Shown piece by piece: positions 12,927 through 21,480 of a stretch of DNA of 34,066 bases. Below the pieces are notes generated by a model. That model searched no databases, was not told the DNA's origin, and saw nothing but the letters and a program-made list of their open reading frames with translations. Origin of the DNA: Actinomycetota bacterium (GTDB taxonomy: Bacteria; Actinomycetota; Actinomycetes; JACCUZ01); contig JAVEDB010000008.1 of the NCBI GenBank assembly GCA_030841185.1, positions 1 to 34,066 of the forward strand, read 5' to 3'. A program made the position numbers and the translations under genes. How positions within the stretch are numbered: position 1 is the stretch's first letter; each line of letters starts with the position of its first letter.

Positions 12927-13994
12927 TCAGAGGAGGGAGAGCTGATCGGCTGACTGCGCACTCGGTGCGGGTGGGGTCGGGGACTGGCCGCCAGATGGCT
13001 GGTGCGCCGCGCGTCCCCGGCCGGCGGCGTCGCGGCCGACACCGTGGCGGCGCGCGGCCGCGTGAACTCGCGCGGTCACGTCCTGCTGGTAGGCCTTCGG
13101 CGCGTAGGCACGCTCGCCGTACAGGGCGGCGTAGCGCCCGACCAGCTCGGGGTGCTCCCGTCGGAGCCAGGCCTGCCACCACTCCCGCGCGCCGGGTCGC
13201 AGGTGCAGCACGATCGGCGAGACGTGGGAGGCGCCGGACGCCGCGATCGCCTTCACCGTCGCCTCGATGTGCTCGTCGGAGTCGGTGAGGAACGGCAGGA
13301 CGGGCGCCATCAGGACGCTGCACCGGATGCCCGCCCCGGTGAGAGCCGCGCACACCTCGAGCCGGCGACGCGGCGACGGCGTCCCGGGCTCGACGGCCCG
13401 CCAGACCTGCTCGTCGACGGACCCCACGCTCACCGCTGCGGAGACGTCGACGGTGCGGGCGGCCTCGGCCAGGAGGGGCAGGTCGCGCAGGATCAGTGCG
13501 CCCTTGGTGAGGATCGAGAACGGGGTGCCCGACTCGAGCAAGGCCCGGAACACCCCGGGCATCAGCCGGTAGCGGCCCTCGGCCCGCTGGTAGCAGTCGA
13601 CATTGGTGCCCATGGCAACGTGCTCGCGGGTCCAGCTGGGCCGGGCCAGCTCCCGGCGCAGGACCTCGGCGACGTTGGTCTTGACCACGATCTGGGAGTC
13701 GAAGTCGTGCCCGGCATCGAGGTCGAGGTACTCGTGGGTCTTACGCGCGAAGCAGTAAACACAGGAATGGCTGCAGCCGCGGTAGGGGTTGATCGTCCAG
13801 CGGAACGGCACCCGGGAGGCCTCCGGGACCTTGTTCAGCGCCGACCGGGCGGTGACCTCGTGGAAGGTGATGCCGCGGAAGCCCGGAGTGTCGAACGTCC
13901 GGGTCACCGCGCCGCGCGGCAGCAACGGGAGCCGCCCATCCGGCGGCGGGGCGTCCTCGGTCAGCCGCAGTGAGTCCCAGCGCACAGGGGACAT
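12927..13994 (-). CDS. Rv2578c-family radical SAM protein (spore photoproduct lyase-like)
   Basis: NPYRGCSHSCVYCFARKTHEYLDLDAGHDFDSQIVVKTNVAEVL radical SAM CX3CX2C. Ends QSADQLSLL. GTG at 13985 (VRWDSL) is a plausible alternative start. Confidence 0.93.
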   Translation of the reverse strand: MSPVRWDSLRLTEDAPPPDGRLPLLPRGAVTRTFDTPGFRGITFHEVTARSALNKVPEASRVPFRWTINPYRGCSHSCVYCFARKTHEYLDLDAGHDFDSQIVVKTNVAEVLRRELARPSWTREHVAMGTNVDCYQRAEGRYRLMPGVFRALLESGTPFSILTKGALILRDLPLLAEAARTVDVSAAVSVGSVDEQVWRAVEPGTPSPRRRLEVCAALTGAGIRCSVLMAPVLPFLTDSDEHIEATVKAIAASGASHVSPIVLHLRPGAREWWQAWLRREHPELVGRYAALYGERAYAPKAYQQDVTARVHAAARRHGVGRDAAGRGRAAHQPSGGQSPTPPAPSAQSADQLSLL

Positions 13995-14010
13995 GGGAAC
14001 ATATGTTCGA
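13995..14010 (-). promoter_or_regulatory. LexA/SOS box-like palindrome at the radical SAM gene start
   Basis: Minus strand TCGAACATATGTTCCC (core GAAC-N4-GTTC), matching the actinobacterial SOS-box core. Confidence 0.75.
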
Positions 14011-14088
14011 ATGACTGTCCAGCAGGCGCCTCAGGAGTCCTACACGACATAATGTCACTTATCGGCGTAACGCCGGGCAGCAGGCAGG

Positions 14089-16479
<2,391 letters not shown>

Positions 16480-20730: not shown

Positions 20731-21480
20731 TCACCTCCGTCCGCCGGCGATGCGGCGCAGCTGCCCCAGCCGGTGCGCCGCGCCCCACACCGTCACCCTC
20801 CAGAGTGCCTCGCGAACGATAGCCCCGCTCATCTTGCTGGTGCCGAACTCGCGTTCGACGAACTCGATCGGCACCTCGACGACGTGGAAACCGCGGTTGG
20901 CGGCTCGCCAGGCGAGGTCCACCTGGAAACAGTAGCCGTGGCTCGCCACGATCTCCGTCATGAGGGTCTCGAGGGTTTCCCGGCGGAACACCCGGAACCC
21001 CCCGGTGGCGTCGCGCAGGCCCAGACCCAGCGCCAGCCGCACGTAGGTGTTGCCGCCCCGGGACAGCAGCCGCCGCCGGGTCGGCCAGTTCACCACGCTG
21101 CCGCCGGGAACCCACCGCGAGCCGAGCACCAGGTCGGCGCTCTCCGACGCGGTCAACAGCAGAGGCAGCTGCTCGGGCTGGTGCGAGCCGTCGGCGTCCA
21201 TCTCGACCAGCGCGTCGTAGCCGCGGTCCAGCCCCCACCGGAAGCCGGCCAGGTACGCGGCGCCGAGGCCGAGCTTTTCGTCCCGGTGCAGCACCTGGAC
21301 CTGGGTGTCGCCCGCGGCGAGCCGGTCGGCGATCTCCCCCGTGCCGTCCGGGCTGCCGTCGTCCACGACGAGCACGTCGGCGTCCGGCACGGCCCGGCGG
21401 AGCCGGCCGAGAACCAGCTCCAGGTTCTCCCTCTCGTTGTACGTGGGCACCACCACGAGGACCCGGCGGGGCGTGCTCAC
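20731..21480 (-). CDS. ppm1: Polyprenol monophosphomannose synthase (DPM1/Ppm-type GT2)
   Basis: VVVPTYNERENLELVLGRLRRAVPDADVLVVDDGSPDGTGEIAD, EMDADGSHQPEQLP, GSRWVPGGSVVNWP. GTG start overlaps the lnt stop. Confidence 0.93.
   Translation of the reverse strand: MSTPRRVLVVVPTYNERENLELVLGRLRRAVPDADVLVVDDGSPDGTGEIADRLAAGDTQVQVLHRDEKLGLGAAYLAGFRWGLDRGYDALVEMDADGSHQPEQLPLLLTASESADLVLGSRWVPGGSVVNWPTRRRLLSRGGNTYVRLALGLGLRDATGGFRVFRRETLETLMTEIVASHGYCFQVDLAWRAANRGFHVVEVPIEFVEREFGTSKMSGAIVREALWRVTVWGAAHRLGQLRRIAGGRR

Follow-up and report, generated by a model that had tools for sequence, protein, structure and literature searches.

An Rv2578c-family radical SAM gene of Actinomycetota with a conserved LexA box and a conserved clamp-type C-terminal tail

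Described relatives and the family of the gene

SplB-like genes are found in the SOS regulons of many phyla, so far without an assigned function. Their SOS control is already published in several phyla: predictions or demonstrations exist for Alpha- and Betaproteobacteria (PMC3323433) and also for Bacteroidetes (PMC8565304), and an analysis of Gram-positive bacteria including M. tuberculosis lists 'a radical SAM protein' in the core SOS regulon (PMC7739468). In S. venezuelae, LexA ChIP and mitomycin induction are reported for the radical SAM gene vnz_31145, a candidate orthologue of the gene described here, with a box that differs (PMC9380542). Phage Samy uses the Streptomyces orthologue as its attachment site, and the link of this gene to DNA repair is termed speculative in a 2026 paper (PMC12924846). 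The initial annotation counts the mycobacterial Rv2578c gene among those listed with SOS boxes; we found no open-access paper naming Rv2578c or PA0069 together with LexA.

Recruitment to the sliding clamp is described for other SOS proteins. The SOS-induced mycobacterial ImuB requires its clamp motif QLPLWG for focus formation and mutagenesis (PMC10421592). ImuB and DinB Y-family proteins, which are SOS-linked and reach the clamp through a QLPLWG- or QLxLG-type motif (PMC10421592), are in these features a parallel to the protein studied here, but they have a polymerase fold rather than that of a radical SAM enzyme. Archaeal NreB-SplB-like pairs provide another parallel, in which gene neighbourhood ties an SplB-like protein to another whose sequence possibly includes a PCNA-binding motif; there, however, the clamp motif is on a separate, archaeal protein (PMC4929162). 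In the open-access literature we found no report of a clamp motif with a radical SAM protein or spore photoproduct lyase (SPL), and within that literature the tail described below is provisionally considered unreported.

The window, which is the whole stretch of 34,066 nucleotides analysed here, contains a minus-strand open reading frame at 12927–13994. The protein read from it ends in ...SAQSADQLSLL*, in agreement with the initial annotation. An in-frame ATG at 13994 would place the residues MSP ahead of a protein started from GTG 13985. We regard GTG 13985 as the likely start because homologues begin at the M or V of '(M/V)RW'; the ATG is disfavoured on the same ground and also overlaps the inferred −10 element. 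The gene then spans 12927–13985 (minus strand) and encodes 352 residues.

Against NF038135, the NCBIfam model of the Rv2578c family, the protein scores 518–521 bits (521 bits for the 352-residue form) over model positions 1–316/317, above the curated cut-off of 430, so that the Rv2578c-type identity proposed earlier is confirmed. Domain, start, box and tail are common to this family. The radical SAM superfamily model PF04055 gives 53.8 bits (cut-off 29.5), and family alignments and PF04055 place the cluster motif C71-x3-C75-x2-C78 at 13752–13775 (minus strand). These three are the only invariant cysteines of the family. Many members carry inteins at CxxxCxxC (L005, L007, L009, L028, L171, L178, L227 and others), and in the sequences read the break lies at or beside the third cysteine. 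The protein falls outside the sister PA0069 family, NF033668 (237 bits vs a curated cut-off of 360). A search with PADLOC for a defence role gave no match, and a phage or mobile origin was rejected, the phage relatives being distant only.

Directly upstream, at 14089–16479 (minus strand), lies a gene for a UvrA-like protein of 796 residues, which scores below the UvrA equivalog cut-off and is possibly a UvrA paralogue. We rejected it as an operon partner since the adjacency is unique to this genome among the loci examined, and the genes around the radical SAM gene thus do not support a repair role.

LexA box and promoter

The LexA box, TCGAACATATGTTCCC, locates at 13995–14010 (minus strand; core 13997–14008), and its second half-site is imperfect, with GTTCCC for GTTCGA. 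It had been described as abutting the start codon. The palindrome does touch the in-frame ATG, but the likely start, GTG 13985, lies 9 nt further on. This gap is the usual spacing among relatives outside Streptomyces; across homologues, GTTC stands 9–12 nt from the start, and about 32 nt in Streptomyces.

The box is strongly conserved. The promoter was not used to collect the 175 complete Actinomycetota homologues, and 109 of 144 genes carry a perfect GAAC-N4-GTTC no more than 100 nt from their start, vs none of 562 control windows taken further upstream. When at most one mismatch is allowed, the figures are 138/144 and 14/562. Within this genome, recA and ruvC have the same type of box in front of them. 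Further boxes of this type stand before DUF222/HNH genes and before a gene with DUF6504; the contig of the latter additionally encodes two polymerases, one DnaE-type and one of the Y family. The boxed DUF222/HNH genes include L051 and L232, on contigs 121 and 253, and several more boxed loci of the genome look DUF222/HNH-like by eye. The 13E12 genes of M. tuberculosis likewise have LexA-type boxes in front of them.

In the window itself, GAAC-N4-GTTC occurs twice, vs 0.31 expected, and of the two only TCGAACATATGTTCCC coincides with the start of a recognised gene. The other palindrome, CGAACTCGCGTTCG, is at 20844–20857; two further copies of its 13-mer exist elsewhere in the genome, and it is linked to no recognisable gene.

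We read a putative promoter, TGGACA-N17-TCCCAT, at 13993–14021 (minus strand), with a weak match to the −10 consensus. The box would occupy its spacer and overlap the −10 element, and the predicted start of transcription coincides with GTG 13985 or falls close to it. The box of several relatives likewise lies between a TTGAC(A/T)-type −35 element and the start and overlaps the inferred −10. This position suits repression by occlusion. In many species the transcript may be leaderless.

C-terminal tail and linker

The last five residues, QLSLL (12930–12944, minus strand), form a predicted beta-clamp-binding-type peptide that is conserved in Actinomycetota and also among the Pseudomonadota, in proteins of the PA0069 family. 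It follows a variable linker rich in Pro, Ala, Ser, Gly and Arg (residues about 317–347; 12945–13037, minus strand), which cannot be aligned and lies beyond the family model. The disorder claimed for this linker agrees with the AlphaFold2 model, in which pLDDT exceeds 90 in the core and drops to about 46–59 for residues 321–352. NF038135 ends at residue 316 of the protein, just ahead of the linker. The last model position, 317, thus precedes linker and tail alike, and annotation by this model misses the clamp motif.

Homologues were collected with a 317-position family model stopping before the linker, together with internal peptides, and the tail therefore had no part in their selection. Conservation of the tail in orthologues, which the initial annotation proposed as a check, is clear from this collection. 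A strict Q-motif lies within the last 14 residues of 139 of the 175 complete Actinomycetota homologues, and most of the others carry variants such as ALTLF, QMSLDLG, QLSII and QLKLC. Other actinobacteria have the tail as QPTLF or QATLF. Among 447 C-termini of neighbouring open reading frames the Q-motif is absent (one match if xLF ends are counted), and about 1% of shuffled tails fit the clamp pattern.

With one sequence taken per 70%-identity cluster, the tail is found in 59 of 61 full-length actinobacterial clusters and in all 11 of intermediate score, which makes 70 of 72 Rv2578c/PA0069-type clusters; in the most distant clusters it is found in one of four. In an alignment of 52 sequences from the two families, conservation of the tail's Q and L reaches at least 90%, a level also seen at catalytic positions. 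The tail is truly absent from the full-length actinobacterial clusters L023 and L030 and from the homologue L224. In L064 and L097, where it seems lost, QLTLL is still readable nearby in another frame; these apparent frameshifts may reflect sequencing error or recent decay. The peptide thus has the form of a beta-clamp client, a QLxLF/L-type motif at a flexible, conserved position. The genome also contains a DnaN gene and encodes a DinB-like protein with RQLLLG.

Our conclusions on the PA0069 family rest on 10 plasmid- or chromid-borne genes of Alpha- and Gammaproteobacteria. Their proteins end in QLSLL, QLSLF, QLRLF, QLTMF and similar peptides, and six of the ten genes have a LexA box of their own group upstream, GTTC-N7-GTTC in five and CTGT-N8-ACAG in one (Aeromonas). 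These sequences are the LexA sites of the respective proteobacterial groups. The combination of SOS control and a clamp-type tail therefore spans two phyla and three different operators. In common with the window protein, members of the PA0069 family have the QLxLF/L tail, and many of their genes have a LexA box; the family differs in its N-terminus, its C-terminal helix and its group-specific LexA sites. One of these genes, L160, adjoins polX on a Legionella adelaidensis plasmid, and another, L159, lies near a dnaE gene on a Sphingomonas parapaucimobilis plasmid.

More distant members, among them those of Runella, Paenibacillus and Haladaptatus as well as L217, L218 and L221, have no such tail. 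In two distant Actinomycetota relatives, a PolX-like C-terminal region (L217) and a helix-hairpin-helix-looking one (L221) replace the clamp peptide. These regions are possibly an alternative DNA-targeting module.

Likeness to spore photoproduct lyase and a candidate role

Among 350,542 PDB chains searched with Foldseek, the top six fold matches are all SPL (TM about 0.6, E about 1e-8). The resemblance is moderate, with an rmsd of 4.5 Å and 13–14% identity. SPL chains are also the only matches of a profile search against the PDB with E up to 1, at E about 0.001 with a wider alignment, and the SPL resemblance claimed at the outset holds in both comparisons. SplB (PDB 4FHC and others; TIGR04070) shares the fold class, the CxxxCxxC cluster and an EPGT...RL segment. 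On the other hand, SPL acts in spores, and the family studied here has no invariant donor cysteine: beyond the cluster three, no cysteine is invariant in the alignments, where a counterpart of the SPL donor C140/C141 was sought by invariance. The SPL family models do not match the window protein, and some PA0069 relatives reach 20–28 bits vs a cut-off of 400. Because of the low identity, the missing model match and the lack of a further invariant cysteine, we do not assign the protein to the SPL family.

The conserved clamp-type tail would place the enzyme at the replication machinery, and DNA is therefore a likely substrate, a point that we make with moderate confidence. The enzyme could also be SOS-induced and clamp-bound without reversing any lesion, the clamp merely localising it while it modifies a fork protein, the nucleotide pool or RNA. 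The substrates of radical SAM enzymes are numerous, the second tier of Foldseek matches consists of glycyl-radical activase, RiPP maturases, lipoyl synthase and MiaB/RimO, and the SPL donor cysteine has no invariant counterpart. However, SPL is nearest both by fold and by profile, and the PolX-like region of L217 points to DNA. We consider this alternative unlikely, although it is the best placed of those weighed here.

For the tail, we give a small chance to a role as degradation or localisation signal, or to a partner other than DnaN. Hydrophobic C-terminal residues can act as protease tags, and most tails stop exactly at the motif. However, the pattern Q-L-x-L-L/F with its near-invariant Q is the clamp signature, it is kept even with residues after it (QLTLFDVDV, QMSLDLG, QLDLFAGIV), and the same tail recurs in another phylum. 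We predict, with strong confidence, that the tail binds the DnaN clamp. That box and tail are chance resemblances within one high-GC gene, as two GAACN4GTTC sites in the window might hint (5 of 100 shuffled windows have two or more), is practically refuted because both are conserved across the phylum far above background.

We thus favour, as the probable reading, an SOS-induced, beta-clamp-tethered radical SAM enzyme of SPL type that acts on DNA lesions where replication takes place. This largely upholds the role suggested in the initial annotation. Relatives in many bacteria keep both the damage on-switch and the clamp-type tail, which argues for a DNA repair enzyme acting at replication sites. 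In undamaged cells, LexA would occupy the promoter of the gene. Upon DNA damage, RecA would become active, LexA would be lost, and the enzyme would be made. Its flexible linker would bear the C-terminal QLxLL/F peptide, which would bind the DnaN sliding clamp in its hydrophobic cleft and so bring the catalytic domain to forks that have stalled or to daughter-strand gaps. At these sites, SAM and the [4Fe-4S] cluster would generate a 5'-deoxyadenosyl radical, reversing or processing the lesion. ImuB is a functional precedent, as QLPLWG recruits it and is needed for its damage-induced foci (PMC10421592). Direct reversal of a pyrimidine-type lesion is a weaker suggestion, since the SPL hydrogen donor has no invariant counterpart here.

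The five-residue tail offers a single mutation target for testing the clamp model. If the favoured reading is true, a radical SAM enzyme would join the clamp-controlled damage response beside translesion polymerases. More tentatively, and with somewhat less than even confidence, we speculate that bacteria which do not sporulate have a widespread class of SOS-induced, clamp-tethered radical SAM enzymes, and that these act at replication gaps by direct reversal of a common DNA lesion. Such a class would be a replication-coupled, light-independent counterpart of photolyase.
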